Positions 1,809 through 54,281 of a stretch of 64,000 bases of DNA are shown piece after piece. The stretch covers positions 62,001 through 126,000 of the forward strand of contig JAUICH010000005.1 of assembly GCA_030427505.1 (NCBI GenBank), read 5' to 3'. The notes beneath the pieces are model-generated. The model was not told where the DNA came from and searched no databases. It worked only from the letters and a program-made list of their open reading frames with translations. Each line of letters opens with the position of its first letter. Within the stretch, counting starts at the first letter, position 1. Position numbers and translations under genes: made by a program. This DNA comes from Verrucomicrobiia bacterium (GTDB lineage: Bacteria; Verrucomicrobiota; Verrucomicrobiia; Verrucomicrobiales; DEV007).

Positions 1809-3686
1809 ATGAACCCCCTCCGAATCTTGCTCACGGCAGTAGCGGCCCTGTTCTTTACAGGTATCGCTCAAGCGGCTGACTCGCCGAACATCCTCTGGAT
1901 CACCAGTGAAGACAATGGCCCCGAACTGGGTTGCTACGGCGATTCCTATTCCGTTTCGCCTCACCTGGATGCCCTGGCGGCCAAGGGGATGCGCTACACC
2001 AACTGCATTTCCAATGCACCGGTGTGCGCGCCGGCGCGAACGACTATTATTACGGGGGTTTACCCGCCTTCCACGGGTAGCGAACATATGCGCTCCATGA
2101 CGAACCTCCCGGCGGACTTCAAGATGTATCCGCAGTTTATGCAGGAAGCGGGTTACTACTGCGTAAACGTCACCAAGGAAGACTACAACCTGCAGAAGCC
2201 CGAAGAGTTCTGGGACGGGAAAAAGGGTAAGAACCACTGGCGGAACCGCGAAGACGGGCAGCCTTTCTTCGCCATTTTCAACTACACCATCAGCCACGAA
2301 AGCCGCATCCGGAACGAGATCGAACCGGAGAACCAGATTCACGATCCCGCCCTGGCCCGCGTGCCCGCCTACCACCCGGACACTCCGGAGGTGCGGAAGG
2401 ATTGGGCACAGTATTATGACCGTATTACCATGATGGACGTGCAGTGTGGGCAAAGCCTGGACGAAGTGAAAGAAGCGGGCCTGGATGAAGACACCATCGT
2501 CTTCTACTACGGCGACCACGGCTCAGGCATGCCGCGCAGCAAACGCTGGCCCTACAATTCCGGACTCGCCGTTCCGCTGATTGTCTACTTCCCGGAAAAA
2601 TGGAAGCACTTGGCGCCAAAGGACTACGAGCCCGGCGGCACCAGCGACCGGTTGGTGGGCTTTGTGGATTTGGCTCCCACGCTGTTGAGCCTGACCGGAC
2701 AGGAGCCTCCGGCCTGGATGCAGGGGCATGCTTTCGCGGGCAAGTATCAGACCCCGGAACAGGAATACAGCTTCGGTTTCCGGGGCCGGATGGACGAACG
2801 CTACGACCTCGTGCGCACGGTAAAGGGCAAGCGATACATCTACATCCGCAACTACATGCCGCACCGCATCTATGGGCAGTACATCGCCTACATGTTCCAA
2901 ACGCCTACCACTCAGGTGTGGCACGACCTCTACCACGCCGGAAAACTGAATGAGGCCCAATCCCACTTCTGGGAAAAGAAGCCGGCGGAAGAACTGTACG
3001 ACCTGGCCACGGACCCGGATGAAGTCCACAACCTGGCGGACTCACCGGATCATCAGGAAGTGCTGAAAAAGATGCGTGCCGCGCATCAAGCCTGGGAAAA
3101 GGAGATTCGTGATGTCGGTTTCCTTCCCGAGGCTGAAATCCATTCCCGTAGCGAAGGCTCGAGCCCCTACGAAGTCGGTCACGACCCGGCGAAGTATGAC
3201 TTCGACGCCATCTTTGCGGCGGCCAATCTGGCTACTTCATTGAAAAAGGAAGACCTGCCGGAGATCGTGAAGCTCCTCGGCAGTCCGGACAGCGCGGTGC
3301 GCTACTGGGGGGCCATTGGCCTGCTCTGTCACGAGGAAGCCGGCGTGGCGGCGGGACGTGACGCGCTGCTCAAAGCGCTAGGCGACGACTCCGCCAGCGT
3401 GCAGATCATGGCGGCGGAAACCCTGGGCCGGTTCAGCACGGACGAAGATGCCGCCAAGGCTCTGGATGTCCTGCTCAGCCACAGCAATCAAGTCACGGGC
3501 AACACCTTCGAAGCCATTCTGGCCGTCAATGCCCTGGACTACATGGACGAACGCGCCCTGCCGCGCCTGGAAGAGATCAAGGCCCTACCCGCAAAAGCAG
3601 GCAAAGACGCGCCGGAGCGCATGGGCGGCTACGTGGGAAACCTGCTGCCGAAAGTGATTTCGGATCTCGAACGAAATCCGAAATAA
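1809..3686 (+). CDS. Secreted sulfatase with C-terminal HEAT-like repeats
   Basis: A 625-residue S1-family sulfatase with a signal peptide (about 1-22, ending QAAD). The formylglycine motif is C73-A-P-A-R77. Metal-binding residues appear at E34-D35-N36 and at D236-H237 in a YYGDHGSG segment. The catalytic part ends near residue 450. Residues about 465-620 consist of helical pairs with HEAT-like spacing (for example LLGSPDSAVRYWGAIGLL and LGDDSASVQIMAAETLGRF). HEAT tails on sulfatases occur in Planctomycetes and Verrucomicrobia and probably bind substrate or partner proteins. It lies 78 bases after the previous sulfatase on the same strand, so the two may be cotranscribed. Confidence 0.9.
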   Translation: MNPLRILLTAVAALFFTGIAQAADSPNILWITSEDNGPELGCYGDSYSVSPHLDALAAKGMRYTNCISNAPVCAPARTTIITGVYPPSTGSEHMRSMTNLPADFKMYPQFMQEAGYYCVNVTKEDYNLQKPEEFWDGKKGKNHWRNREDGQPFFAIFNYTISHESRIRNEIEPENQIHDPALARVPAYHPDTPEVRKDWAQYYDRITMMDVQCGQSLDEVKEAGLDEDTIVFYYGDHGSGMPRSKRWPYNSGLAVPLIVYFPEKWKHLAPKDYEPGGTSDRLVGFVDLAPTLLSLTGQEPPAWMQGHAFAGKYQTPEQEYSFGFRGRMDERYDLVRTVKGKRYIYIRNYMPHRIYGQYIAYMFQTPTTQVWHDLYHAGKLNEAQSHFWEKKPAEELYDLATDPDEVHNLADSPDHQEVLKKMRAAHQAWEKEIRDVGFLPEAEIHSRSEGSSPYEVGHDPAKYDFDAIFAAANLATSLKKEDLPEIVKLLGSPDSAVRYWGAIGLLCHEEAGVAAGRDALLKALGDDSASVQIMAAETLGRFSTDEDAAKALDVLLSHSNQVTGNTFEAILAVNALDYMDERALPRLEEIKALPAKAGKDAPERMGGYVGNLLPKVISDLERNPK

Positions 3687-3739: not shown

Positions 3740-6518
3740 TGCTGATTGTCAGGGTTTTAGCCTTCTCTCCATCATAAGCCGTCACAAGCACCGTTTGACC
3801 GGCTTCCACGTCCACCAGCCCTGAAATCGGGACCCGCCCATCGCTAAGGCTGCGTGCACCTCTCAGGGGCCGGCCTTCCGTGGTGACGAAGCGGATGTCC
3901 GCGTTGGGGAGTGTCTTAATCTCCGGCAGGCGGCTGGTAATGGGGCGCCCTGTTACAGAGGCGGTCTCCGCGAGTTGACCGCCACCGCGCGGTTCTTCCG
4001 TGGGAGCATCGATCATGTTCCGCAGGCGATAGGCCATGGCGGGATCCGCCGGGCGGGGATCGAACTCCATTTCCAGAAAGTTCCAGTAGAAAGGCGCGCC
4101 TTCCTCATGGGGCTGGAGATCGGGAGTCGCGTACTGCTTGTGGTAGAGGGCGTACATTTCCAGGTCGCGGCCGTCCACGTCCTTCATCTTCGGGCCGAAG
4201 CCGGGGATCACCCCGCGCCCACCACTGCGGCCAATGGGACCAAAGGAACATTCCACCAGCCGGTGAGCGGTGTTTTTCATGATGGAACCATTGTGCACGT
4301 CGCCATAAACGGTCACGACTCCACTTCGTCCACTTAGCAACTCAAGCACGCGATCCGCGCCCGCCTTCACCCAGCCGGCGTAGTCCGCGACCACGCGGTC
4401 GCGCTGGTCAAAGCCCATGGGATTTGCCTTGCTCTGATTCCCGGAACCCGTCCAGATGGTGTGAATGCCATTGATCCCGGTCAGACAGATGACGGGCGAC
4501 GAATCCGTGTGCATGACTTCCTGTAGCCAGGCAAACTGTTCTTCGCCCAACAGGGCGCGGGTGGGATCGGTCCGGTCGTAGAGTGTATTGGCTTCGCCCC
4601 AGCCCTGGTCGTCCCAGATGTCCGTGTCCTGTGAAGTCCGCCACAGGCGGGAGTCCAGAATGACCAGCGTGAAATCCCGGTCCGGCATCTTCCAGGCGCG
4701 CCACTTTTTCGGATTCGCTTTGCCATCCACCTCTTCCGCGCCGGTGATGAGGTGATGAACGATCTGGAAGTTCCGCTGCAGGTATTCGGGATCCTGTCCC
4801 AGGAAGCGGTGGTTCCGGAGGATGAACTGCTCGGGCCCCTTGATGTCGTCCATCCCGTAGTCGTGATCGCCAGGATTGATGACATTCCAATGCCGCATCA
4901 TCTGCCACCGGCTGGTGGGACCGCAGATGGTGGTCGTGACAACCTTGTAAGCATCGTCCGTGCTGGGCGGGTATAGGACGAGTTCCATGTACCAGACGTC
5001 GTCCTCCCAGACCATGATCTGGAAGCCGTAATCTTCGAAATGTTTGTAGGCCTCCACCGTGGGTTGATCCCGGTACTGCCATTCCCGGCCGCCCCCCAGG
5101 ATCTTCAGTTCCCCGTCCCCGGTTCGCTGCTGCAGCCCGCTGTTGATGGCATGACAGCTCAGGCCGCACAGCTTGTAGGGAGCGGTCAGTTTTGGTAACC
5201 GCCCCACATAAGACCCACTCGCGGGCACGTCCCCCACAAAGGCGGTTCCCTCGCCCACGGAATCCGTGCCAATACGCGTATCCGCTGTTACATCCTTACC
5301 GTCCTTCCAGACCGTGTAGTAGAGCGTGTGTTCCGCCGGGCTAGCTGGCAGGGTAGCGGTCACGACTGACGTGAACCGCCGGAAATCGTTATTCACGATG
5401 GGCGCGCGGCCCGCCACGTGAATGCTTTCCCATCCGCCGTCCGGTTCAGGTTCGACGGAAATTCGAACCTCGGCCTCTTCTCCGTCCGGTGCAAAGAGAG
5501 ACACAAACTTCACCGTCCACTGGCCGTCCGGCCGTTTTGTCAGGGTATCTCCCAGCGGATAGCAGGTATAGCACTCCACTGGCGCGACACTCAGGGCCTC
5601 ATTTTCCTGGGGATCGATGGAGACGGATTGGATCTCGAAGTCGATTTGTCCGCGGGTGGAAATACCAAAGTAGCCATTGGGACCGTTGTCACGGGGAACC
5701 TCCCGACGTTTGAGAACGGCCTTTTCACCCTTCGCTTCAAACGTGGCCGTCATGGTGGCTTTGTCAGGATCGTCCCCGCTGACCTCCAGGGTCAGGACAA
5801 ACTCGTCGCCCGGTTCCATCGCGGGTGCCTGAGCCTTGTGAATGTCTCCATCCTTTCCGGCGGCCTTCTTTTTTCCATTCCCAAAGTCCAAATACGCAAA
5901 ATTCCCGTCATCCTTCCAGGCAGCCACGCCCATCTGTTTCCCAAGACCGTAGCCCTCCAGCAGGCTGGCGCCGCCAAAGGCAATGCCGATGTAGGCGAAG
6001 CCGGGCGTGTACATTTTCCAGCCGGGATCATCCCCTTCCAACAGGGCGAGGGCGGGCGCCAGGTACTTTCCCCGGAGCGCGACACGATAGTTGCCACTGA
6101 GTTTCCAGTCGGTGCGCCAGAGCACGCCTTCCGGAAGGCTCGGATCGTAGAGCGTGGTGTATTCTCCCCTCTCCTGGTGAGATTCGTAATGGTAGGGAAA
6201 ACCCGTCTTTCGGGCCCGTTCGCCCACGTTCCCAAACCGCCGCCGGAGAGCCCCGTCTTTCACCTGCCAGTAGCCAGGGTTCAGTGACTCCCAACCATGA
6301 CCGTGAAACAGCGAGTCCGGCCGGTCGAACATGTCCACCGCCACCTTACAGGGTAGCTCCCCAGCCGAGCCGCGAGCCTCCGGAGAAGACAGTAGACTGG
6401 CGGCGGCCGGAGGAAGGGCGAGGGCCGCTCCCGACACGGCGCCGGACTTGAGGAAGCGGCGGCGGGAAAAGTTTGACCGCTTGGGGGACGGCGAACCGAA
6501 GGGCTTGGAGTTCTTCAT
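3723..6518 (-). CDS. Tat-exported PhoD-like metallophosphoesterase
   Basis: A 931-residue protein with a twin-arginine signal (S18-R-R-R-F-L-K24 followed by an Ala-rich hydrophobic segment), so it is exported folded. The N-terminal third (about 55-310) is beta-rich and resembles a concanavalin/LamG-type carbohydrate-binding fold. The central part (about 440-800) has PhoD/metallophosphatase features: NPGDHDYGMDD near 549, an LVILDSR segment and GDVHNGS near 740, which would bind the catalytic metals. The C-terminus is a small beta domain. The family usually cleaves phosphodiesters or phosphomonoesters in the periplasm. The substrate cannot be told from sequence. Confidence 0.75.
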   Translation of the reverse strand: MKNSKPFGSPSPKRSNFSRRRFLKSGAVSGAALALPPAAASLLSSPEARGSAGELPCKVAVDMFDRPDSLFHGHGWESLNPGYWQVKDGALRRRFGNVGERARKTGFPYHYESHQERGEYTTLYDPSLPEGVLWRTDWKLSGNYRVALRGKYLAPALALLEGDDPGWKMYTPGFAYIGIAFGGASLLEGYGLGKQMGVAAWKDDGNFAYLDFGNGKKKAAGKDGDIHKAQAPAMEPGDEFVLTLEVSGDDPDKATMTATFEAKGEKAVLKRREVPRDNGPNGYFGISTRGQIDFEIQSVSIDPQENEALSVAPVECYTCYPLGDTLTKRPDGQWTVKFVSLFAPDGEEAEVRISVEPEPDGGWESIHVAGRAPIVNNDFRRFTSVVTATLPASPAEHTLYYTVWKDGKDVTADTRIGTDSVGEGTAFVGDVPASGSYVGRLPKLTAPYKLCGLSCHAINSGLQQRTGDGELKILGGGREWQYRDQPTVEAYKHFEDYGFQIMVWEDDVWYMELVLYPPSTDDAYKVVTTTICGPTSRWQMMRHWNVINPGDHDYGMDDIKGPEQFILRNHRFLGQDPEYLQRNFQIVHHLITGAEEVDGKANPKKWRAWKMPDRDFTLVILDSRLWRTSQDTDIWDDQGWGEANTLYDRTDPTRALLGEEQFAWLQEVMHTDSSPVICLTGINGIHTIWTGSGNQSKANPMGFDQRDRVVADYAGWVKAGADRVLELLSGRSGVVTVYGDVHNGSIMKNTAHRLVECSFGPIGRSGGRGVIPGFGPKMKDVDGRDLEMYALYHKQYATPDLQPHEEGAPFYWNFLEMEFDPRPADPAMAYRLRNMIDAPTEEPRGGGQLAETASVTGRPITSRLPEIKTLPNADIRFVTTEGRPLRGARSLSDGRVPISGLVDVEAGQTVLVTAYDGEKAKTLTISTMPLS

Positions 6519-6629
6519 TTCTGGGGGCTGGGGATTCTTCTGTTAGAGGAAACGCAAACAAGACGCAGCGCGTGAAATCTCCACCACGCTAGCAGCCCGG
6601 CCGGGAAGAAGCCACCCCGGCCATATGGC

Positions 6630-7535
6630 TTATCCCCGTATCACCCGGGCCACGTTTCCCTCTTCGATCACGAAATTCACTCTGTCCGCCTGCCAGCTTA
6701 GGCTCTTCAGCGCTTGCGCCTTTCCCTCCACGCGAATGATCCGCGACTTCAGTCCACGATCTTTCGCCACTTCCATGGCCCGGCTCTCGCTCAATCCCAG
6801 AAAGCTAAGATCCTCCCCAGCTTCGCCGCTGGCGCCTGAAGCATCCGGCTCTTTCAACCGACCAATTTCTACTTGAGTGGACAACCCGAGTTTCTTTTCC
6901 GCATTCACATAGTACCCCACCGGATGACCCGCTTCATCCACTTGGAACCACATCACTCCCGCGCCCACCCCGTTGGTCCCATCTGGACGGGTGTCATTGG
7001 CATGAGTGGATCGGGTGGAATCCAGCACCCGCACTTTGATCCGCCCGTCAGACTCCCGTTCCGGTTTGCCGGCAATCATGAGCGTGTGCCCCGTCGATTC
7101 GCCCCGCCGCAGTTCGTCTTTTCGCCATGCCAAGACATCCCCCGGCCGCGCCTCTAACAGGCTGGACACCCGCTCCCAGCTGGGGTCCCGGCCTTCGCCC
7201 GCGCGAGCGAACGTTTCGAAATACGTCACGGAGAGCGCCCGGGTCCGCCACGGTGCTTCCTCACCCCGCAGAGAAAGGTAGGCTTCCGGAAAATCCCGCC
7301 TCAAAGCGTAGCCAATCAGCCCAGAACAGTCGCAGCGGAAAGATCCCTTCCCCTCATCAATCTCCGTCTTGTGCTGATAGATCGTATCTTCCAGTCCCGC
7401 GAGGAATCCTTCCAGTCGTTCCGCCAGCCGGCCGGAAGGAGTGGCCGCGGTTTCCGCCGCCACTCCCGGCCCACTATAGTAAGCCAGAAATACTACAAGA
7501 GCTGAAATCCGGAGGAGCGGCACCTTCTCGTTCAT
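6630..7535 (-). CDS. Secreted NlpC/P60-like hydrolase with I78-like C-terminal domain
   Basis: A 301-residue protein with a signal peptide (about 1-27, ending GVAA). Residues 60-215 look like an NlpC/P60-type cysteine peptidase: FRCDCSGL with C70-S-G as the candidate nucleophile, a following GDVLAW strand, H150 in TGHTLMIAG, and a polar residue in LDST (D172). Residues 245-301 (LGLSESRAMEVAKDRGL ... DRVNFVIEEGNVARVIRG) resemble peptidase-inhibitor I78 / potato-inhibitor-like domains. A cell-wall amidase fused to its own inhibitor-like domain is the simplest reading. It is minus strand, about 110 bases upstream of the PhoD-like gene. Both domain calls come from motif recognition only. Confidence 0.6.
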   Translation of the reverse strand: MNEKVPLLRISALVVFLAYYSGPGVAAETAATPSGRLAERLEGFLAGLEDTIYQHKTEIDEGKGSFRCDCSGLIGYALRRDFPEAYLSLRGEEAPWRTRALSVTYFETFARAGEGRDPSWERVSSLLEARPGDVLAWRKDELRRGESTGHTLMIAGKPERESDGRIKVRVLDSTRSTHANDTRPDGTNGVGAGVMWFQVDEAGHPVGYYVNAEKKLGLSTQVEIGRLKEPDASGASGEAGEDLSFLGLSESRAMEVAKDRGLKSRIIRVEGKAQALKSLSWQADRVNFVIEEGNVARVIRG

Positions 7536-7726
7536 GTCCAGGGGAGGTTTGAATACAGAATGACGGATCCGGGGACGATCCAGGGAGCCCGTCCAGCAAT
7601 GCGCTCTATTGCGCTTCCGGACGAACGAAACAGTCTTAAGGCGAAAACCGCGACGAGATCAATCTTAAGTGAACGTCCCTTCGCCCACCTCTGCGGCAGC
7701 CCTCGACCCAGACGGCCAAGTGATCT

Positions 7727-8725
7727 TCACGCCAACCGCTTCGCCGCGTCCTTCGCGAAGTACGTCAGGATCATGTCCGCCCCGGCCCGCTTGATGCCGA
7801 GCAGGCTTTCCAGCATGACGGCTTCTTCATTCACCCAGCCATCCGCGGCGGCGGCTTTGATCATGAGGTACTCCCCACTCACCTGGTAGGCGGCAATGGG
7901 CAGGGTAACGGCATCCCGCAGCAGGCGGATGACGTCCTGGTAGGGGCCCGCCGGTTTCACCATCAGGATGTCCGCGCCTTCCTCAATGTCCAACTCCGCT
8001 TCGCGCAGCGCTTCGCGGGAGTTGGCTGGGTCCATCTGGTAACTCTTCTTGTCTCCGCTCTTGGGAGCGGACTCCAGGGCTCCCCGGAACGGCCCGTAGT
8101 AGGCAGAGGCATACTTGGCGGCATAGGAGAGAATGGAGACGCGCTCAAATTCTTCCGCGTCCAGGGCATCGCGAATGGCGGCCACGCGCCCGTCCATCAT
8201 GTCGCTGGGCGCCACGATGTCCGCGCCGGCGGCGGCATGGCACAGGGCCTGGCGGCACAGCACCTCCACGGTTTCGTCATTTAGGATGTGGATCTCGCCG
8301 CGTTCGTCCTTCCTTACCAATCCGTCGTGTCCATCGCTGTTGTAAGGGTCCAGGGCCACGTCCGTAATGACCACCGAAGTGGGATAGGCCGCCTTGATCG
8401 CCCGGATTGCCCGCGGCACTAAGCCCTCAGGATTGTGACACTCTTCTCCCCCCGGCGTCTTCAGCCCCTCTTCAATGGCTGGGAACAGGACGAAGGAACT
8501 GACGCCCACCTTTATCGCTTCGCCCACTTCCGCGAGCAGTCCTTCCACGCTCCAGCGTTTGCAGCCCGGCATGGAGGCAATGTCTTCATCCACCTCTTTC
8601 TCGTGAAGGAAGAGCGGATAGATCAGGTCCCCCGGCGCCAGCCGCGTCTCACGCACCAGTTCGCGGATGGCGTGGTTCTTCCGGTTGCGCCGCAGCCGGA
8701 CTGGCAGGTTCAGTCTTTGTGACAT
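7727..8725 (-). CDS. hemB: Delta-aminolevulinic acid dehydratase (porphobilinogen synthase)
   Basis: A 332-residue enzyme that condenses two 5-aminolevulinate molecules to porphobilinogen in tetrapyrrole synthesis in the cytoplasm. The Schiff-base lysines are visible in LSYAAKYASAYYGPFR and in MVKPAGPY. The metal-site loop reads DPYNSDGHDGL, with Asp in place of the Cys cluster of zinc enzymes, so this is the magnesium-dependent, zinc-independent type. Its start overlaps the end of the upstream cysS by 16 bases, so translation is probably coupled. Length is typical for the family. Confidence 0.96.
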   Translation of the reverse strand: MSQRLNLPVRLRRNRKNHAIRELVRETRLAPGDLIYPLFLHEKEVDEDIASMPGCKRWSVEGLLAEVGEAIKVGVSSFVLFPAIEEGLKTPGGEECHNPEGLVPRAIRAIKAAYPTSVVITDVALDPYNSDGHDGLVRKDERGEIHILNDETVEVLCRQALCHAAAGADIVAPSDMMDGRVAAIRDALDAEEFERVSILSYAAKYASAYYGPFRGALESAPKSGDKKSYQMDPANSREALREAELDIEEGADILMVKPAGPYQDVIRLLRDAVTLPIAAYQVSGEYLMIKAAAADGWVNEEAVMLESLLGIKRAGADMILTYFAKDAAKRLA

Positions 8726-10128
8726 AGCTCGTATCCCTCCCGTCCGTCTTTCACTTCCCAGCCCAGGCTGGCCAAGGCATCGCGCGCGGCATCCGCCGCC
8801 GCCCAGTTTTTCTCCTGCTTGGCCTTCCAGCGTTCCTCGGCCAGGGCTTTGACCTCTTCCGGCGCTTCCGCCTGTTCGGGCAAGGCGGGCAGCTTCAGAC
8901 CCAGGGCTTCCAGGATGAGGTGAAAGCCTTTCAGCTCCCGCGCGGCGTCTTCGGGACTCAGCGAAGCCGGGTTCACTTCCTTCAGCGCGGAAAACATCTT
9001 ACCCAAGGCATCCGGGGTGTTGAGATCGTCCAGCAGCGCGTTAAAGGCTCCGCCGAACGAACCCTTGTCCTCCAGGCCCTTGAGCGACTCGTAATCCAGT
9101 CCGGTCACCTCTTCTCCCGCAGCCTGCCGGAGGGCGGCTTCGAACTTTACCAGGCGCTGTATCGCGCGCCCGGCATCGTCCAGAGACTGTAACGTAAAGT
9201 TTAGGGGCTGACGGTAGAGGCCGGAAATCAGGACATACCGCACTTCCTCCGCCGTATGCCCTTTTTCCTTCAATTGTTCCAGGGTGTAGAGATTCCCCAG
9301 GGACTTGCTCATCTTGTGCCCGTCCACCAGCAGGTGGGTGATGTGGAACCAGTGCAGGGCAAAGGGCTTGCCCGTGGCGGCCTCGCTCTGGGCGATCTCG
9401 TTCTCGTGGTGGGGGAAAATCAGGTCCACTCCCCCGGAGTGAAGGTCGAAGGTGTCCCCCAAGTATTCCCGGCACATCGCGGAACATTCCAGATGCCAGC
9501 CCGGCCGCCCCTGTCCCCAGGGACTGTCCCAGTAATTGTCCCCATCTTCTGGCTTACGGCCTTTCCACAGGGCAAAGTCCGCCAGGGCATCCTTTTCATA
9601 TTCGTCGGCGGAAACAGCGGTGGCCGCGGCGGACGAGGTCGTGATCTCCCGCTCGTCCAGGTGAGACAGGCGGCCGTACTGCGGGAAAGAACTGACCCGG
9701 TAGTACACCGAGCCGTCTTCGCTCCGGTAGGCGTGGCCTTTCTCCATCAACTCCTCAATCAGCGCGATCTGCTGCGGAATGTGCCCCACCGCGCTGGGTT
9801 CGTGATGCGGCGGCAGGAGGTTCAGGGCCTCGCAATCCTGATGAAACTTTAACGTCCAGAACTGGGTAAATTCCCCCAAAGTCTTCCCACCGGCCTGTGA
9901 ATCACGGATTGTCTTATCATCAACATCCGTTAGATTTCTAACATGGCAGGTAGGCTGCCCGGAGAGTTCTAACACTCTTCTAAACGTATCTTGAACGACA
10001 AAGGTTCGGAAGTTACCAATATGAGCCGGCCCATAAACCGTCGGTCCGCAGCAATAAAAGCGGTAAATTTCCCCGCTGGAGGGCCGAATTTCCTGTTTAT
10101 TGCGCGACTGGGTTTCGTAAAGCTGCAT
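8710..10128 (-). CDS. cysS: Cysteinyl-tRNA synthetase
   Basis: A 472-residue class I aminoacyl-tRNA synthetase that charges tRNA-Cys. The N-terminus MQLYETQSRNK is the conserved family start, so ATG 10128 is preferred over the upstream in-frame ATG at 10191. The HIGH-like motif is GPAHIGNFR, the zinc-site region includes FYCCGPTVY and CSAMCREYLG ... FPHHENEIAQ, and the KMSKS motif is intact (KMSKSLGN). A C-terminal helical anticodon-binding region follows. It overlaps hemB by 16 bases and forms a two-gene operon with it. Confidence 0.96.
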   Translation of the reverse strand: MQLYETQSRNKQEIRPSSGEIYRFYCCGPTVYGPAHIGNFRTFVVQDTFRRVLELSGQPTCHVRNLTDVDDKTIRDSQAGGKTLGEFTQFWTLKFHQDCEALNLLPPHHEPSAVGHIPQQIALIEELMEKGHAYRSEDGSVYYRVSSFPQYGRLSHLDEREITTSSAAATAVSADEYEKDALADFALWKGRKPEDGDNYWDSPWGQGRPGWHLECSAMCREYLGDTFDLHSGGVDLIFPHHENEIAQSEAATGKPFALHWFHITHLLVDGHKMSKSLGNLYTLEQLKEKGHTAEEVRYVLISGLYRQPLNFTLQSLDDAGRAIQRLVKFEAALRQAAGEEVTGLDYESLKGLEDKGSFGGAFNALLDDLNTPDALGKMFSALKEVNPASLSPEDAARELKGFHLILEALGLKLPALPEQAEAPEEVKALAEERWKAKQEKNWAAADAARDALASLGWEVKDGREGYELCHKD

Positions 10129-10340: not shown

Positions 10341-10385
10341 ATGATAGCAGCTTCCACCTCACGGCGTTCCAGAAATTCTACGCTC

Positions 10386-13300
10386 ATGCTGTCGATCAAA
10401 ATCGGCAATGAGCCCACTGCCGTCTTCCCGATTGATGCTGGCACCGTCACCGTAGGCCGGCGGAAGGACAATCACATCGTACTGAAAGACCGGTTCATCT
10501 CTTCTTACCACGCCGAATTCCGCCGCCTGTCGGACGGCACCTATGAGATCGTCGACCGTGAATCCTTCAACGGCACCTTCGTCAACGGAGAGCGCGTGAC
10601 CCGCGCGAAAGTAAAAGCGGGCGACAACCTGAAGATCGGCACCATTCCGGCCCGCCTGATCTTGGAAGAGGGAGTGGTGGAAGATGCCCCGAGCGTCAGG
10701 GCGCCGCTCCAACTCCGCCCCCCGGTAGACTTTCACGAAGGGAACTCCCCCGATCTGAAGTTCCGGTCCTCCTCCCCCGCTCCGGAACTGCCGCTTTCTT
10801 CGGGCAATATCGAGTCCCGGATGGGGAACTTGCAGGCCCCGCCCTCTCAGAACTCCCTGGTCAGGATCAACAATCTGGAGCCGCCCAGAACCTCCGCCCC
10901 ACCTCGGCACGAAGACTTCGAAGCCAGGTCCGCCGCGCCGCAGGATTTCATGAGAAGAGATCCGTCCGATCAGAATTTCATCAATCACGAGCCGCCGAAG
11001 ATGCCACTTCTTCCTCTCGAAAGAGGCAACGAACTTTCTCACGGGGTCAGCCACCGGGAGGGCGGCGACCGCCTTCACCAGTTGGAGTCCGAGCTGGCCA
11101 ACGCCAAGGCCGAACTGGCCAAGGCTCGGCACCAGGATCCGTATTCCGATCGCGAATCGCATTCCCAGGCGCCGGATGCGTACCAGAACCGGGAAAGCCG
11201 CGAATCCGAACCGCTGCGGAGAGAACAGCGGGAGTTTGACGAGAGAACCCGCTCCGCCGAAGAGGAGTTGGCCGAGCTCCGGCGGAAACATGCTTCCTCT
11301 CAAGCGGGACGGGACAGAGTCCAGGGGCAAAGCTTCGAACCCGAAAAACCGCGGGGTCACTACGAACTCCATAGCCAGCTACACGGCGGCTCCGGTTCCA
11401 GCCTGGATGGACGGGACCCCGAGTTGCGCCAGGAACTCGAACGTCAAGGCCAAACCCAGCGCAATCTTGAGAACGAGAAGTACGCGCTCAACGAAGCCCT
11501 CACCAAGGCTCGCGAAGACGCGGATCGCCTGAGACAGGAAAAGTCCGCGCTGGAGGCCAGAACCTCCGAAATGCGGCACGACATCGAAAACCTGCACCAC
11601 CTGCGGGCAGAGTTGGAGCGGGCCCGGCAGGAAATCGCGAACAAGAACGCGGCCATCTCCGAACGGGACGCCCACATCGCCCAACTGGCGACGGACACCG
11701 AGTCCAGGCGCTACGAAGTCACCAACCTGGGACAGGAAGTCGCCACCCAGACCCAGATCATTTCAGGCAAGGAAGCGGAGTTGAATCAAACCCGGCGGCT
11801 GCTTCAAACCCGGGAAGAGGAACTGCAGAAACTCCGGGAAGAGATTGCCGGATTGTATCGCGACTTCGACAAGCTGCGCGGCGAACACGAGCAGGCCAGT
11901 TCCGCCGCGTCCGCGCAGTCCAGCCGGATCGCCAGCCTCGAACAGCAGTTGGAGGAACGGGCCAAGGCGTTCAAAGAGATCAGTCATCGCGCCAACCAGG
12001 ACAAGGAAGCCCTCGCGATCCGGGAGCACAAGATCGACTCCCTCACCGCCACCATCGAACGGCTCGAAGGCACCATCGCGGAGCGGGACAATCAGCTCCA
12101 CGCCGCGGCGGAAGAGCAGCGGAGCACTGAAGGCGATCTGGTCCAGTCCAACGAACAGATCGTGGCGCTCAATACCCGCATCTCGGAACTGGAAGAGGAA
12201 AAGAAAGGCCTGGAGTCAGATCTGGTCCAAACCAAGCAGGACGCGGACGACACCGTGGCCAAAGTCCAGACCACCTATGGCGACCTGAACCTCCTCACCG
12301 AAACGCTGACCGCCAAGCGGATGGAGGAAGAGAAGCTTTCCAAAGTCCTCGCCGACAAGGAAGCCACCATCCGCAGCCGCGAACTTCAGTTCGAAGAAGG
12401 CTGCAAGCGCCAGGAAGAACACTTTGCCAAACTCAAGGCCCAACACGAGGAAGCCTGCAAACAGCAGGACGCCGCGTTTGCCACCCGCAAAGCCCGCCAC
12501 GAGGAGGCCGTCCGCCAGCAGGAGGCCGAGTTCGAAACCCTGAAGGCTCAGCACCTGGAAGCCTGCCAGCAGCAGGAAGAGCACTTCGCCAACCTTCAGG
12601 AACAACACGAAGAAGCCTGGCGGCGGCAGGAAGAAAAATTCGCCAGCCTGGTGGCGCAGCACGCGGAAGTCATCGAGCAGCAGGATGCCGAACTCGCCGC
12701 CATGAAGGTGGAGTACGAGCACGCCCGGGAAGAACAAGAAGCCGAACTCGCCCATCGCAGAGCCCAGATTGAGGAAGAGCACCGCGAATACGAGGCACAG
12801 CTTTCCCAGGAAAAAGCCCGGATCGAAGAAAACTACCGCAATCACCTGGCGGACTTCGCCGCCCGGACCGCCCAGCTGGAAGAAGAACGCAAACAGCAGG
12901 AAGCGGAACTGGCCACCCTGAAATACCAGCACGAAGAAGCCTGCAAACAGCAGGAGGCTGACTTCGCCGCCCTGACCACGCGCCACGAAGACGCCTGCCG
13001 CCAGCAGGAAGCGGATTTCAAAGCCCTCACGGCACGGCGGGAAGCGGAACACGAGGAGGCTTGCCGCGAGCTCGAGTTCCAGTTCAACGAATTCAAGGCC
13101 CAGCTGGACCATTCGCGCAAACAGCTCGAAACCAAGTTCGCCGCCGACACCGAGCGGAGGGACAAGGAATGCCGGCAGCACGAAGCCGCCATCACGGCTC
13201 TCAAGACCGAGCAGGAACACGCCCGTCAGGTGCTTCAGGATCTGCAGGACGCCGCCGAGGAAAATCGCCGTCTCTCCGCGGAACTGGAACGCGAAGGCCA

Positions 13301-14456
13301 GACCCGCCACGCCTCCATCGAACAGCAGGTGAAGGCGGAACAGGAGAACCTGCACAAGATCGCATCCGGTCTCGCCGCGTCCGAAAGACAGCGCGCCGAC
13401 GTGGAAGAGTCGATCAAGGGTCTGGGCCGCCAGAAAGACAACCTCGAAACCCAGCTCGAAGTGCTGGGCGGGAAACTCGCCAAACTGAACGCGGAGATCG
13501 AGGCCAAGTCCGAGCTGCGCGAAGAACTGAACCGGGTCGAAAAACGCGCCCGCGAACTCGAAAAGCGGGAAGAGAAACTCTCCACCCGCGAGATGCGCGT
13601 CAAAGAACGGAAGGAAATCGAGCAGGCCGCCGAACAGCGCATCCGCGAGATCGAAAAAGCCGTTCGCGAGCGGGAGAAAGTCATGGCGCAATTCCAGACC
13701 GAAGCCGACGAGCGCATTAAAGAGGCCGACCGCGCCCTTCAAAAACGCCTGCTGGAACTGAAGATGGCGGAAGACCGCATCCACATGGCCGAACAAATGG
13801 ATTCCGAGATTGCGTCCAAGCAGAAGCGTCTCGACGAGATGAACGAAAAGCTGAACGACTACAGCGACTCCATCCAGCAGTTGCAAGGCGAGAGAAAGAC
13901 CCTGGAAGCCAACGTCAAGAAGTTCCAGTCCGGCGTGAATGCCGGCCCTGCCCCGCTGGCCAAAGCCGCTTCCAGAACCGTCGTTCCGGAAGACGTGGCC
14001 GCCGCCGAAAATCGCCTCAAAGAGATCCAGCAAAAAATCGAAGAGTGCGAGGACTACCAGCGCATTCTGCGGGAAGCCCTACGGCCGGACCAAGGCACGG
14101 TGCAGGTGCTCAGCCACCAGATCATCAAAAAGCTCGATCAACTGGAAGACCTCATCTACCGTTACAAAAAGAACAACCGGGGCGACGTCGTCACTCAGCT
14201 GGTTTCCCTGCGGGACAGCTTCCAGGACATCCTCAGCGATCATTCGGTCAAAGCTTTCACCTTTGCCCCGGGCACGGAACTCGACAAGAAGCGCCGCGAT
14301 CGCGTCGAGATCGTCGATACCCAATCCGTCTCGAAGAATGGAGATTCTTCGCCCCACATCATCGAAACGCTCCGGCCTGGCTACGTGGTGTGCGAGAACG
14401 GTAACGGAAGCGAAAAGGTTATCCGTAAGGCAGAGGTCATCGCAGCCAATACCTGA
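10386..14456 (+). CDS. FHA domain, long coiled coil and GrpE-like domain protein
   Basis: Start ATG 10386 is preferred because the FHA fold begins at once (MLSIKIG); the frame is open from an ATG at 10341. From the preferred start the protein has 1356 residues. Residues 1-90 are an FHA phosphothreonine-binding domain: G24-R25, DNHIVL, S39-S40-Y-H42, and N62-G63-T64. Residues about 95-240 are low-complexity and Pro-rich. About 240-1200 is almost uninterrupted coiled coil rich in Glu, Gln, Ala and Arg, including an 18-residue tandem repeat at 667-940. Residues about 1210-1356 resemble GrpE: a helical pair, then a beta-rich end (FTFAPGTELD, IIETLRPGYVV, VIRKAEVIAA). GrpE exchanges nucleotides on Hsp70. 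The next gene is an Hsp70, so the tail may act on it. There is no signal peptide. Confidence 0.78.
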   Translation: MLSIKIGNEPTAVFPIDAGTVTVGRRKDNHIVLKDRFISSYHAEFRRLSDGTYEIVDRESFNGTFVNGERVTRAKVKAGDNLKIGTIPARLILEEGVVEDAPSVRAPLQLRPPVDFHEGNSPDLKFRSSSPAPELPLSSGNIESRMGNLQAPPSQNSLVRINNLEPPRTSAPPRHEDFEARSAAPQDFMRRDPSDQNFINHEPPKMPLLPLERGNELSHGVSHREGGDRLHQLESELANAKAELAKARHQDPYSDRESHSQAPDAYQNRESRESEPLRREQREFDERTRSAEEELAELRRKHASSQAGRDRVQGQSFEPEKPRGHYELHSQLHGGSGSSLDGRDPELRQELERQGQTQRNLENEKYALNEALTKAREDADRLRQEKSALEARTSEMRHDIENLHHLRAELERARQEIANKNAAISERDAHIAQLATDTESRRYEVTNLGQEVATQTQIISGKEAELNQTRRLLQTREEELQKLREEIAGLYRDFDKLRGEHEQASSAASAQSSRIASLEQQLEERAKAFKEISHRANQDKEALAIREHKIDSLTATIERLEGTIAERDNQLHAAAEEQRSTEGDLVQSNEQIVALNTRISELEEEKKGLESDLVQTKQDADDTVAKVQTTYGDLNLLTETLTAKRMEEEKLSKVLADKEATIRSRELQFEEGCKRQEEHFAKLKAQHEEACKQQDAAFATRKARHEEAVRQQEAEFETLKAQHLEACQQQEEHFANLQEQHEEAWRRQEEKFASLVAQHAEVIEQQDAELAAMKVEYEHAREEQEAELAHRRAQIEEEHREYEAQLSQEKARIEENYRNHLADFAARTAQLEEERKQQEAELATLKYQHEEACKQQEADFAALTTRHEDACRQQEADFKALTARREAEHEEACRELEFQFNEFKAQLDHSRKQLETKFAADTERRDKECRQHEAAITALKTEQEHARQVLQDLQDAAEENRRLSAELEREGQTRHASIEQQVKAEQENLHKIASGLAASERQRADVEESIKGLGRQKDNLETQLEVLGGKLAKLNAEIEAKSELREELNRVEKRARELEKREEKLSTREMRVKERKEIEQAAEQRIREIEKAVREREKVMAQFQTEADERIKEADRALQKRLLELKMAEDRIHMAEQMDSEIASKQKRLDEMNEKLNDYSDSIQQLQGERKTLEANVKKFQSGVNAGPAPLAKAASRTVVPEDVAAAENRLKEIQQKIEECEDYQRILREALRPDQGTVQVLSHQIIKKLDQLEDLIYRYKKNNRGDVVTQLVSLRDSFQDILSDHSVKAFTFAPGTELDKKRRDRVEIVDTQSVSKNGDSSPHIIETLRPGYVVCENGNGSEKVIRKAEVIAANT
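12384..13205 (+). repeat. 15 tandem repeats encoding an 18-residue coiled-coil unit
   Basis: Inside the FHA protein gene there are twelve consecutive 54-base units (12384-13031), one 66-base unit (13032-13097) and two more 54-base units. Translated, the units follow the pattern A-Q-H-E-E-A-C-K-Q-Q-E-A-D-F-A-A-L-K. The most alike are those starting at 12438, 12492, 12924 and 12978. Eighteen residues equal five turns of an undistorted alpha helix (3.6 x 5), so each unit presents the same face. Confidence 0.85.
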
Positions 14457-14598: not shown

Positions 14599-16086
14599 AT
14601 GGCGAAATACGTTGGCATTGACTTAGGAACCAGTACCTCGGGACTGGCCTATGTGCGTCCTGACGGTAATCCTGAGATCGTCCCCAACGCGGACGGCGAA
14701 CGTCTGACCCCCTCGGTCGTTTACTTCGACCAGTACGAAGGCATCAAGGTGGTGGGCTCCTCCGCGCGGGACGGAGGCGATCCGGACCGCACGGTTCACA
14801 ACATCAAGCGGCACATGGACGATCCGTCCTTCACGATCGAGATCGACGAACAGAAATGGACGCCGACGGAGATCTCCGCGATGATCCTTTCGAAGCTCAA
14901 GCGGGACTGTTCTCAGATCATCGGCGATATCAAAGAGATCGTGGTGACCGTTCCAGCCAACTTCAATGAGCTGGCGCGGAAAGCGACCGTGACGGCAGCC
15001 AAACTTGCCGGGCTCGGCGTTTCGCGCCTGGTGAACGAACCCACCGCTGCCGCCCTTTACTACGCCCAGTCCCGGAACATCGACGGCCGCGTCCTCGTTT
15101 ACGACCTGGGTGGAGGCACCTTGGACATCACGGTTCTGGAAATCGACGGCGACAATATCGACATCTTGCTTTCAGAGGGGGCCCGGCACCTCGGCGGCGC
15201 GAACTTCGACGAAATCCTGCTCGAAATCCTGGCCGACGAATATCGCAAGCAGAATGGCGCCGAGCTCTTCATCGATGAACGCCAGCGCCGCCGGGCGCTG
15301 ATGTTGGGAGAAGACGCCAAGAAGATGCTTTCCAAGCTCTACCGCATTACCGAGACGGTGGGCAATGACTCCGACGGCACCGCCCGGATCGAACTGAGCC
15401 GGGAAAACTTCGAAGCCGCCGTTTCCCGCCTTATCACCCGGACGATCATGCTGGTGGAACAGGCGCTGGATTCTCTGGATTTGAAGCCCTCCGACATCGA
15501 CCACGTCGTGCTGGTGGGTGGCAGCACGAGGATTCCCAAAGTTCAGCAGACCTTGGAGAAGTTCTTCGGGTTTTCCCCCATTTCCTGCGGAAACGTGGAC
15601 GAATGCGTGGCCCTCGGCGCGGCCCTTTTTGCCCAAAAAGCCCGCAAAGTATCGGAAGTCTGCAACATCAGCTACGGCACCCTGGCCTACATCGAAGATG
15701 CCCGGACCGGTACCGGTAGCATTCAAAATTCCATCGTCATTCCCAAGAACACCCCCATCCCGTGTTCCATGTCTCAGACCTACATCACGTCTGAGGACAA
15801 TGAAGAACTCATCGAGGTGGAGATCACTCAGGGAGAGGACAGCGATCCCCGCTACGTGGACATCATTGGAAAGATCGGGCTGGAGGTGCCTCCAGGCCGC
15901 CCGGCGGGTTGCGAGGTCACCGTGACTTACAGCTATGATGAGAACCAACGGGTTCACGCCCAGATTCTCGACGAACAGTCCGGACTTTCAAAAGACGTCT
16001 CCATCGAGTATAAAGGAGAGGGTGTTTTGTCGGACGAAGACATCGAGCGAAAGACTGCCTATCTGAAACAGATCAAGATCGCCTAA
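14599..16086 (+). CDS. Hsp70-family ATPase without helical lid
   Basis: A 495-residue Hsp70/DnaK homologue, about 140 residues shorter than DnaK. The nucleotide-binding domain (1 to about 360) has the phosphate-1 loop IDLGTSTSG (7-15), K70 in NIKRHM, VNEPTAAAL, and the phosphate-2 loop VYDLGGGTLD (167-176). VLVGGSTRIP near 310 is the adenosine motif. DnaK's T199 equivalent is Arg in ARHLGG. The conserved LLLD interdomain linker is absent; VCNISYGTLAYIE takes its place. Residues about 365-480 look like a reduced beta substrate domain, and no C-terminal helical lid follows. It lies 142 bases after the FHA/GrpE-like gene on the same strand. This suggests a dedicated chaperone or scaffold pair, not the general DnaK. 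Confidence 0.88.
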   Translation: MAKYVGIDLGTSTSGLAYVRPDGNPEIVPNADGERLTPSVVYFDQYEGIKVVGSSARDGGDPDRTVHNIKRHMDDPSFTIEIDEQKWTPTEISAMILSKLKRDCSQIIGDIKEIVVTVPANFNELARKATVTAAKLAGLGVSRLVNEPTAAALYYAQSRNIDGRVLVYDLGGGTLDITVLEIDGDNIDILLSEGARHLGGANFDEILLEILADEYRKQNGAELFIDERQRRRALMLGEDAKKMLSKLYRITETVGNDSDGTARIELSRENFEAAVSRLITRTIMLVEQALDSLDLKPSDIDHVVLVGGSTRIPKVQQTLEKFFGFSPISCGNVDECVALGAALFAQKARKVSEVCNISYGTLAYIEDARTGTGSIQNSIVIPKNTPIPCSMSQTYITSEDNEELIEVEITQGEDSDPRYVDIIGKIGLEVPPGRPAGCEVTVTYSYDENQRVHAQILDEQSGLSKDVSIEYKGEGVLSDEDIERKTAYLKQIKIA

Positions 16087-21330: not shown

Positions 21331-22371
21331 TCAATCCCCATCCAGGAGACGGCCAATGCCGCCCAGCACGGAGCCTTCGCCCTGCGACCGTCCGCCGGAG
21401 GAAGGCGCGTGCGCGATGATGCGGTCCGCCATCCGGGAGAACGGAAGGCTTTGCAGCCACACCTTGCCGGTGCCGCGCAGGGTAGCCAGGAAGAGCCCCT
21501 CCCCACCGAAGAACATGGACTTGAGATTCCCCGCCCGCTCGATGTTGTACTCGATGCCCGGGGCAAAGGCCACCAGGCAGCCGGTATCCACCCGCAGCGT
21601 TTCGCCTTTCAGTTCTTTCTCAATGATCGTCCCCCCAGCGTGGATAAAGGCCAGCCCGTCGCCTTCCAGCTTCTGGAGGATAAAGCCCTCTCCGCCGAAG
21701 AAGCCTGCTCCCAGGCGTCGATTGAAGGCGATCGAGACCCGCGTGCCATAAGCCGCGCAGAGGAAGGCGTCTTTCTGACAGAGAACGGAACCGCCAATCT
21801 CTTTCAAATTCATCACCACGATCTTTCCGGGATAGGGAGCCGCGAAAGCGACGCGCCGTTTGCCGCCGCCGCCCCGGTGCGTGAAGTGCGTCATGAAAAG
21901 CGACTCCCCGGTCAGGGCCCGTTTTCCGACGGAGAGCAACTTGCCCATAAGCCCTTCGTTCGGCGTGGAGCCGTCCCCCATTCGCGCTTCGAAGACAATG
22001 TCCTGCTCCAGGTAGTTCATGGCTCCGGCCTCGGCGATCACGGTTTCGCCCGGGTCCAGTTCCACTTCCACGATCTGCATGTCGTCCCCGAAGACCTCGT
22101 AGTCCACGTCATGAGATTTCAGGCTCGGCCCGAAACCTCCGCCACCGCCTCCACCACTCATTGGCGGCGGCGTGCTGGACTGCTGGGGTGGCGGCGACGC
22201 CTGCGCGAAAAGATTCGGCAGCGCCTGCGCCGCGGGCGTCCAGTTTTCCATGCCCGCGGTCCATACCCGCGTGTTCGGATTGATCGTTCCGTTTTGCACC
22301 AGCCCGGGAAGGGCGTCCTCGGTCGTCTGCCGCTGCTGGTTGTCTGGTGTCGCGTAGTGCCAGGTTTTCAT
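21331..22371 (-). CDS. AIM24/TIGR00266-family protein with N-terminal GYF_2 domain
   Basis: A 346-residue cytoplasmic protein. Residues 1-55 form a GYF_2-type domain ([13 protein letters not shown] ... [16 protein letters not shown]). A Gly/Pro linker follows (about 60-85). Residues about 88-310 are the AIM24-type beta barrel ([20 protein letters not shown], then [17 protein letters not shown], with a closing [22 protein letters not shown]). The family is widespread and related to a yeast mitochondrial biogenesis protein, but its bacterial function is not established. It lies 42 bases downstream of ilvD on the same strand. Confidence 0.85.
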
Positions 22372-39085: not shown

Positions 39086-39595
39086 TGCACTTACTACCGG
39101 GCAGCGAGAACGCGGGTTTCCATGGGAAACCACAGAGGACTCAGAGGGCACAGAGAAACTGGGAGGGGTGAGTCATATCGTTTCCGTGAGGTTGTTGCCA
39201 ATTTGAGCGCTGATGTCTCCATTTAGACCACGGATAGCTCAGATATCACAGATGCAATCTGGGTGGCTGGCGCTTGAATCCACCATCGAGGCTATCTGTG
39301 TAATCCGTGGTTTTTAGAATCGGTCTTTCCGATCTAAAACTGTCCTGCTACGGGCTCCACGGCTTCAGTGTCCCCAACCCATCCTCTCTGTGCTCTCTGA
39401 GTCCTCTGTGGTTCAACCCTGGGGATTGCCACGCTTCAAGGCTTGAAGGGAATTACATTGCTTTCCGGTCCAAAAACCCCGATTTTAGGGAAGTGTTCCC
39501 CTCCGTTTCCACAACGGCGGGAAAATTCAGTCGCTTATCAAAGCGCTGGCTGTAACCGGCGTGCGACAAGTTGCGTCTTTGTTTGGGGAATTTCC
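39086..39595. repeat. Gene-free stretch with nested inverted repeat
   Basis: The outer arms, 39128-39156 and 39385-39413, are 29 bases each and complementary at 28 positions (AACCACAGAGGACTCAGAG ...). The inner arms 39227-39253 and 39294-39311 share ACCACGGAT ... CACAGAT ends. The sequence class recalls short accessory repeats (CCTCTGTGGTT and ATCCGTGGT families) scattered in many bacterial genomes. No coding sequence was found in it. The rest of the stretch has nothing notable. Confidence 0.75.
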
Positions 39596-42196: not shown

Positions 42197-42247
42197 GCTT
42201 TTTGCTTAGCTTTTTAGAAAACCATTCTATCGAAAGGAATACGGCAA

Positions 42248-43711
42248 ATGTCGAAACACTTTCTCCGCCGCTCCGTCCAGGCGCCGCTCTACTCCCGCCG
42301 GCACGCCCTGAAAAGCCTGTCGTCCGGTTTCGGCTACCTGGCCTTTGCCGCCCTGGCACATGAAGCAGCCGCGAACTCCCTTGTGCCTTCCTCCGCCGTG
42401 GCCGGCCAGGGCCTGGCGCCCAAGCCACCTCACTTCCCCGCGCGGGCTAAGCGCGTCATCTTCCTCTGCATGCGTGGCGGCCCCTCTCACTTGGACCTCT
42501 TTGACTACAAGCCGGAGCTGGCCGCCATGGATGGCAAAACGGCTAAGGTGGGGCCTTTCAAGAACGGCATTCAGCTCCTGGGGCCGCAGACGGCTTTTTC
42601 CCAGCACGGCCAGTCGGGCCTGTGGATCACGGATCTATACCCCCACATAGCCGAGCACGCGGATGACCTGTGTGTCATCAACAGCATGCAGACGGATCTG
42701 CCGAACCACGCGCAGGCCTTCGTGCAGTTGCACACCGGCAGCTTTCAGTTTGTGCGGCCGTCCTTTGGAGCGTGGTCGCTCTATGGTCTGGGCACGGAAA
42801 ACGAGAACCTGCCCGGCTTCATCACGCTCAATCCCCCGTCCGACAACGGCGGCGCGCAGAACTATGGCAGTGCATTTCTTCCCGCCATCTGCCAGGGCAC
42901 CAAAATCGGCGGCGCGCAGTTGCCGGATCTTTACGCTGCTTTGCTGGGGAAACAGGACGAGCCCGGACCTCCGCTGAAGAACATCGAAAACGACCGCCTC
43001 TCCCGCGGCGTGCAACGCAAACAGCTGGACCTCATCAAACACCTGAACCAGCACAAGCTGCGGAAGGAAACCTACCAACCGGAAATCGAAGGCGCGATTG
43101 AATCCTTCGAGTTGGCCTTCCGCATGCAGGACGAGGTACCCAACGTGTTGGACGTGCGCGATGAGCCGCAACACATTCTGGATCTCTACGGTATCGGTCA
43201 GAAGAACGACCGCTTCGCCCGCCAGTGTCTCCTGGCCCGCCGCATGGCGGAGGCCGGGGTGCGCTTCATCGAAGTGACCGCGCCGGATAACTGGGACCAC
43301 CACCGTGCCCTCAAAGACATGATCGCCAAGACCTGCGAAGGAACCGACCAAGCCATCGGCGCGCTTTTGACCGACCTCAAGCAGCGCGGTCTCCTGAAAG
43401 ACACTCTCGTCGTCTGGGCCGGCGAGTTTGGCCGCACCCCTTATGGCCAGAGTTTCAACGGCCGCGATCACAACAACAAGGGCTACACCCTCTGGATGGC
43501 TGGCGGCGGCGTGAAAGGCGGCCTGGCCTACGGCGCGACGGACGAACTCGGTTACGAGGCCGTGGAAAACCCCGTCCACATTCACGACTGGCACGCGACG
43601 ATGCTCCACCTGCTAGGCCTGGATCACAAGCGGCTCACCTACAATTACGGTGGCCGGAATTTCCGGCTAACGGATGTGTATGGGGAGGTGGTGACGGATG
43701 TGGTCGGGTAA
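42248..43711 (+). CDS. DUF1501 family Tat protein
   Basis: A 487-residue protein with a twin-arginine-like signal (YSRRHALKSLSSG near residues 16-28). Core DUF1501 segments: KRVIFLCMRGGPSHLDLFDYKP, then TDLPNHAQAFVQLHTG, and DTLVVWAGEFGRTPYGQSF with GRDHNNKGYTLWMAGGG near the C-terminus, resembling alkaline phosphatase/sulfatase-fold metal loops. It pairs with the upstream PSD1-type cytochrome gene. The family is typical of Planctomycetes and Verrucomicrobia; the reaction is not established. Confidence 0.92.
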   Translation: MSKHFLRRSVQAPLYSRRHALKSLSSGFGYLAFAALAHEAAANSLVPSSAVAGQGLAPKPPHFPARAKRVIFLCMRGGPSHLDLFDYKPELAAMDGKTAKVGPFKNGIQLLGPQTAFSQHGQSGLWITDLYPHIAEHADDLCVINSMQTDLPNHAQAFVQLHTGSFQFVRPSFGAWSLYGLGTENENLPGFITLNPPSDNGGAQNYGSAFLPAICQGTKIGGAQLPDLYAALLGKQDEPGPPLKNIENDRLSRGVQRKQLDLIKHLNQHKLRKETYQPEIEGAIESFELAFRMQDEVPNVLDVRDEPQHILDLYGIGQKNDRFARQCLLARRMAEAGVRFIEVTAPDNWDHHRALKDMIAKTCEGTDQAIGALLTDLKQRGLLKDTLVVWAGEFGRTPYGQSFNGRDHNNKGYTLWMAGGGVKGGLAYGATDELGYEAVENPVHIHDWHATMLHLLGLDHKRLTYNYGGRNFRLTDVYGEVVTDVVG

Positions 43712-50456: not shown

Positions 50457-50506
50457 GGCTTCGGGGCCTTTCTTAGATATATCAGTTAAACGCCACGGAA
50501 TACCGA

Positions 50507-53935: not shown

Positions 53936-54281
53936 CAACCGGTTATGAGGGACAAGATATTTCATGAAATCTACTACCGAAAGAGGCGTCAATGATCGGG
54001 GTATCAAGATGCCTTAAGGTCGCCGCTCTTCGGGGCGATCTCAACTCACGCAATAAGGGGAGCCCCCTATTCGAGCGGGAGAATTACGGGAAAGGCTCCT
54101 CTTCTGAGATCACCTTCTATACGAACGGCGCGGGCCACATCGTTCCGAAGGCGAGAAAGTGAGTAGAAAGACTCATGGGAGATTCAACTCCCTTAACTAA
54201 TAGCTCAATTAGTTATGAGCCAGGCACCCTATTACAGGGCGCGCACGATCTCCAGCGACGGGCGCGAACCTGGGTATTGCC

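Follow-up and report, generated by a model that had tools for sequence, protein, structure and literature searches.

A FHA–coiled-coil–GrpE-like protein with an 18-residue repeat array, encoded beside a lidless Hsp70 in a Verrucomicrobiota order

The window analyzed here, a 64,000-nucleotide stretch of contig JAUICH010000005.1 from a Verrucomicrobiia bacterium, contains three consecutive genes on the forward strand. The first is an open reading frame of 1371 amino acids (10341–14456, +) in which an FHA domain is followed by a disordered stretch, a coiled coil of about 840 residues, and a GrpE-like C-terminal domain. The second encodes an Hsp70 of 495 amino acids (14599–16086, +), and the third a small partner protein, here called P3 (16129–16629, +). 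Residues are numbered from the start of the full reading frame, although Met16, at position 10386, is the likelier true start of the first protein because several relatives begin at the equivalent position. Two genes upstream of this frame run in the opposite direction; from a reading of their sequence, we take them to be cysS and hemB. Of the 40 loci fetched from relatives, 8 contain a homologue of the first, cysS, which in several cases adjoins the FHA gene.

The FHA domain (residues 36–100; 10446–10640, +) matches Pfam PF00498 with 63.2 bits against a cut-off of 20.7. Across 33 aligned members, the arginine of the GR motif is retained in 32, the serine and histidine of SxxH in 32 and 33, respectively, and, in the NGT and VNG motifs, the threonine in 29, the first asparagine in 26, and the second in all 33. 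These residues are presumably the phosphothreonine contacts, and since they are mostly conserved, docking to a phosphorylated partner is plausible.

At the opposite end of the protein, the 157-residue C-terminal domain (residues 1215–1371; 13983–14453, +) is well supported as GrpE-like by the agreement of Pfam, a PDB profile search, and the predicted fold. PF01025 (cut-off 25.8) scores 31.1 bits on the domain alone and 29.8 in a six-frame search, but 24.9, slightly below the cut-off, on the full-length protein; 17 of 22 family members match it, with E-values up to 0.01. A 22-member profile searched against the PDB returned the GrpE structure 4ani as its top match (E 0.0023). The fold was predicted as a single chain from eight sequences, with a mean pLDDT of 78.6 and a pTM of 0.58 in a run in which four of the five models had a mean pLDDT of only 52–56. 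With this model, the first eight Foldseek matches were all GrpE chains, and VIA-align gave six GrpE entries Z-scores of 10.0–12.7 over 137–148 residues, higher than the Z of 8.6 (over 54 residues) of the next, unrelated, short helix match; the rmsd values to the GrpE chains are large, at 8.5–15 Å. The model predicts a long helix or stalk, a helical bundle, and a beta wing, in the same order as in GrpE (PF01025; 1dkg, 4ani), and the wing region is kept, with the best conserved columns of the domain located there. Unlike GrpE, to which it is about 12–22% identical in structural alignment, the domain is linked to an FHA domain by a stretch that can reach about 1600 residues. The first-pass annotation of this DNA had called the protein chaperone-linked, which was right but understated, since the protein carries a GrpE-like domain of its own at the C-terminus.

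Between the two domains, a heptad coiled coil (residues 372–681; 11454–12383, +) leads into an array of 18-residue units (residues 682–955; 12384–13205, +), and a second heptad coil follows (residues 956–1214; 13206–13982, +). The array consists of 12 contiguous 18-mers (682–897), the insert ARRE (898–901), and 3 further 18-mers (902–955). Unit alignment thereby matches the earlier count of fifteen units, fourteen of 18 residues and one of 22, the latter being an 18-mer plus a 4-residue stutter; the residues given at that time, 667–940, denote the same segment counted from Met16. In an identity autocorrelation over residues 665–943, lag 18 ranked highest (identity 0.372, z = 15.0), followed by lags 36 (z = 11.0) and 54 (z = 9.5), and the maximum over every lag in 500 shuffles was z = 3.98, so that the tandem repeat claimed from the sequence is real. 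A profile built from the units of the array picked up 13 of the 15, missed the degenerate pair 790–825, and placed an additional borderline unit at 664–681 (score 12.6 versus a shuffle maximum of 13.6). At the DNA level, Tandem Repeats Finder reports a 54-bp period.

The apolar residues of the array peak at a Fourier period of 3.60, compared with 3.50 and 3.49 in the preceding and following coils, respectively, and the 18/5 reading, with 18 residues as 5 x 3.6 and each unit returning to the same helix face, is therefore right. Neither plain heptads nor a repeat at chance level, either of which the first-pass annotation had named as evidence against its own reading, is found. Unit positions 3, 7, 10, 14, and 17 share one 80-degree face, and their 4-3-4-3-4 spacing amounts to two heptads plus a stutter. 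Of the 15 units, 10 have Phe at position 14 and all have Phe, Leu, or Ile there; Cys occupies position 7 in just 7 of 15, so that the regular Phe and Cys positions noted earlier are borne out in part. The core is partly polar, with His predominating at position 3 and Gln at position 10. A role of the H-x3-C pattern in metal binding was rejected because no more than 7 of the 15 units carry the Cys.

The 18/5 period itself is already known: the available text of PMC4786415 describes it as two heptads plus a stutter, in the form of a delocalized stutter, and puts a straight helix at 3.63 residues per turn. Judged by its period of 3.60, the array would be almost, but not exactly, straight, which agrees with the earlier proposal of a nearly straight rod. 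The array resembles known 18/5 coiled coils in placing 18 residues over five turns, as measured here, and differs from them in running through fifteen tandem units in a row within a heptad rod; it offers a clean natural 18/5 segment for use in coiled-coil work. With the helix rising 0.15 nm per residue, the array computes to ~41 nm and the coil as a whole (residues 372–1214) to ~126 nm. About one third of a very long rod would thus be made nearly straight.

The neighboring Hsp70 (PF00012, 334.9 bits) is 36% identical over 491 residues to the genome's own DnaK. Its nucleotide-binding domain and the beta part of its substrate domain align with DnaK-type Hsp70s, and the helical lid is absent, because the alignment ends at DnaK residue 524 of 654, where the reading frame stops. 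Among the matches listed, its orthologues form a clade of their own at 65–82% identity, and almost all of the remaining Hsp70s of these genomes are at most 40% identical to it; it scores under all of the NCBIfam cut-offs listed for Hsp70s. The genome also encodes an ordinary GrpE and two other long Hsp70s, and the genes in the window therefore constitute an extra set. Elsewhere in the genome (G000:C6:179811-182189), another Hsp70, with a 622-amino-acid frame, has an adjoining J-domain reading frame and forms a separate extra pair.

P3 comprises 166 residues, modeled as a low-confidence proline-rich N-terminal part and a confidently predicted, conserved helical C-terminal domain. A relationship to J-domains was pursued because these were the first three Foldseek matches, albeit weak ones (E 0.6 and up), and because the hhalign score of P3 against J-domains, 16.7, exceeded those of 100 column-shuffled profiles. 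A decoy control removed the claim, with pieces of the stalk scoring 16.85 and Hsp70 blocks 22.9. In VIA-align, J-domains reached Z 6.5 at best and were interspersed with unrelated hairpins, and the HPD motif is absent from all 28 P3 core sequences (that of the window and 27 others). P3 is accordingly described only as possibly J-like. The idea that it is a split-off Hsp70 lid was also unsupported (hhalign E 0.66 against the C-terminal parts of two of the genome's own Hsp70s, a profile of two sequences). Pfam searches with six P3 members gave one stray weak match in a single member, and a PDB profile search with P3 gave no matches. Four P3 relatives (L078, L079, L081, and L082) begin with the basic-apolar sequences MIKKFF, MIKKLF, MFKKLF, and MIRRLF, which could be a membrane-binding helix.

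The distribution of the three genes was surveyed in 57 related genomes, all from outside the genus of the window's genome. The GrpE-like domain was found in 35 and P3 in 27, and at least 29, fragments counted, have an Hsp70 sharing no less than 65% identity with the window's copy. Taking the Hsp70 from among the matches listed, Hsp70 and P3 occur together in 26 of these 29 genomes, and the GrpE-like domain is found in 24 of the 29 genomes with the Hsp70 versus 11 of the 28 without it (Fisher 0.001, kinship ignored); five genomes thus have the Hsp70 without a GrpE-like match and 11 the GrpE-like domain without the lidless Hsp70. At 22 of 40 fetched loci, a reading frame with an FHA and/or GrpE-like domain, in one case a truncated remnant, lies beside the orthologous Hsp70 on the same strand. 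In one genus (g7; L046 and L048), an FHA–coil protein that carries no GrpE tail lies beside the lidless Hsp70 and P3.

The gene order FHA–GrpE-like, Hsp70, P3 is seen repeatedly within a single Verrucomicrobiota order. Among 288 genomes sampled from the phylum, 7 yielded the GrpE-like domain and 8 yielded P3; apart from one weak P3 match, all of these belong to that order, and the gene order was not clearly seen outside it. These profile searches with the GrpE-like domain and P3 covered the phylum; beyond it, a pattern scan used the GrpE-like part. Named genomes yielded no match to the whole protein and, when searched with the GrpE-like part, seven loci from Verrucomicrobiota MAGs (Verrucomicrobiales, Verrucomicrobiia). 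Phage records gave just one weak match, to the FHA domain only.

Two rearranged loci were also encountered. In L128, a 335-amino-acid reading frame (2038–3045, −) holds an FHA domain, a partial GrpE-like domain, and the C-terminal part of an Hsp70, as if an internal deletion had fused two genes; an assembly error is possible. L035 (4246–5564) and L077, which are the same contig from two collections, contain, next to P3, only a GrpE-like domain (182 amino acids) and a C-terminal piece of an Hsp70 (a 121-amino-acid reading frame); the operon has here shrunk to a remnant.

The linker between the FHA and GrpE-like domains ranges from 20 residues (L059) to 1606 (L050). It is steady in g13 (979–1136), g24 (1159–1213), and g4 (20–21), and variable within g2 (212–1296); a linker of merely 20–21 residues in g4 indicates that a long rod is not essential. 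Among the stalks examined, a lag of 18 is the top repeat only in the window's protein, ranking second, and weakly, in L048. The relatives peak at other lags, with 29 in L047, 22 in L046, 14 and its multiples in L053, and 49, 53, 57, or 60 elsewhere. The first-pass annotation had likened the array to a ruler, and as a general rule this is not supported, given that two genomes are nearly rodless and two are without the GrpE tail; nor is a ruler of fixed length across the family. Most stalks have a period near 3.5 in their strong windows. Those of genus g7, with different sequences, have periods of 3.56–3.64 in every strong window (5 of 5 and 7 of 7). In L047 (reading frame 4441–9486, −), a 29-residue repeat (18 + 11) starts at about residue 748 and shows 92% protein and 96% DNA identity, the latter marking it as a recent, fresh expansion.

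Based on these data, we propose, with a probability of about 0.55, that the locus encodes a second, dedicated Hsp70 machine, in which a rod would tether the nucleotide exchange factor to phosphorylated partners. Compared with the 18-residue repeats, which are local, the arrangement as a whole is of greater interest. Its architecture is well supported, and from this we infer a function. According to the available text of PMC4753570, GrpE forms a dimer on a stalk, with a wing that opens the nucleotide cleft of Hsp70; the protein described here can therefore be read as a GrpE whose stalk is enormously extended and carries a phosphopeptide reader at the far end. The stalk is probably a parallel dimeric coiled coil, of which the array forms one lineage-specific segment, and the client of the GrpE-like domain is most likely the neighboring lidless Hsp70, with P3 as a further cofactor. 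The FHA domain would dock on a phosphorylated partner, the rod would keep the GrpE-like wing at a distance from this anchor, with the 18/5 units rendering about 41 nm of it nearly straight, and the wing would speed ADP release from Hsp70 at that place. By this route, Ser/Thr phosphorylation would determine where in the cell Hsp70 turns over.

Whether the array has a role of its own within such a rod is a narrower question. Tandem duplication in a spacer of indifferent sequence could have produced it by neutral drift, with the helical phase kept because a broken phase would disrupt the coil and with no function attached to 18/5 as such. This account concerns the array only, is compatible with a tethered exchange factor, and to us falls not far short of an even chance. 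It fits the restriction of lag 18 to the window's protein, the differing periods of the relatives, including the recent one in L047, and the plain 3.5 of most stalks. The g7 stalks, however, also reach 3.56–3.64 with other sequences, and the codon usage of the units points away from drift. Synonymous codons are shared between them at 0.677 versus 0.629 (329 of 2000 permutations), and thus not above chance; recent duplication was rejected as the source of the window's array on this ground, and the units are taken to be old or constrained. That the unit pattern nevertheless persists suggests that it is held by selection. The array might instead be a stable single alpha-helix of the charged, ER/K-like type rather than a coiled coil, given its richness in Glu, Gln, Lys, and Arg and the His and Gln that fill core positions 3 and 10. 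We regard this as very improbable, as an apolar stripe runs along positions 7, 14, and 17, with no exception at position 14, and strong heptad coils flank the array on both sides.

A further alternative is that the coil forms filaments or a cell-organizing scaffold, to which the FHA domain recruits phosphorylated partners, while the GrpE-like end serves mainly as a dimerization cap and the Hsp70 assembles or remodels the scaffold. A very long coil whose sequence changes as its heptad phase stays steady in most relatives would suit such a role, as would a length that is steady within some genera and the retention of the FHA domain, coil, Hsp70, and P3 by members of g7 that have no GrpE tail. 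More generally, GrpE-like domains without the Hsp70, FHA–coil proteins without the tail, and two genomes nearly devoid of a rod show that neither rod nor pairing is obligatory, and the scaffold role therefore remains a serious rival. We nonetheless consider it unlikely, because the GrpE-like domain retains the wing in addition to the helices, with its best conserved columns there, and because g4 retains both the FHA and the GrpE-like part while having hardly any coil. The tethered exchange factor is our preferred reading.

If it is true, the joining of a GrpE-like domain to a phosphopeptide reader by a rod whose length varies widely, together with a dedicated Hsp70, would place Hsp70 turnover in space and tie it to kinase signaling. 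The available text of PMC4753570 describes GrpE as the one type of exchange factor encoded in eubacterial genomes. No description of an FHA–GrpE fusion was found in the open-license PubMed Central literature, and within the literature searched there, the combination of the FHA–coil–GrpE fusion, lidless Hsp70, and P3 is undescribed. There is also a likeness to the Hsp70 and GrpE genes of the GAP1-N2 conflict systems (PMC7159879), which likewise add to the housekeeping chaperones an Hsp70 that has a GrpE-type partner of its own; the available text of that paper describes neither an FHA–coil–GrpE fusion nor a P3-like gene, and the three genes of the window, by Pfam, include no GTPase. Carried to its furthest, the proposal would be of a phosphorylation-addressed Verrucomicrobiota Hsp70 machine in which a lidless Hsp70 works with a degenerate J-like cofactor and an exchange factor on a rod reaching about 200 nm at most, the length of which is reset in each lineage by phase-preserving tandem duplication, such that clients are released at a defined distance from a phosphorylated anchor. 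As a whole, this extended version is speculative and rather doubtful. The natural range of linker lengths provides a ready-made series for testing the effect of rod length.

Elsewhere in the window, a GYF_2 domain is fused to an AIM24 domain (21331–22371, −), and two pairs of PSCyt1/DUF1549/DUF1553 and DUF1501 proteins (39443–43711, +, and 48993–54007, −) lie in opposite orientation within 15 kb.
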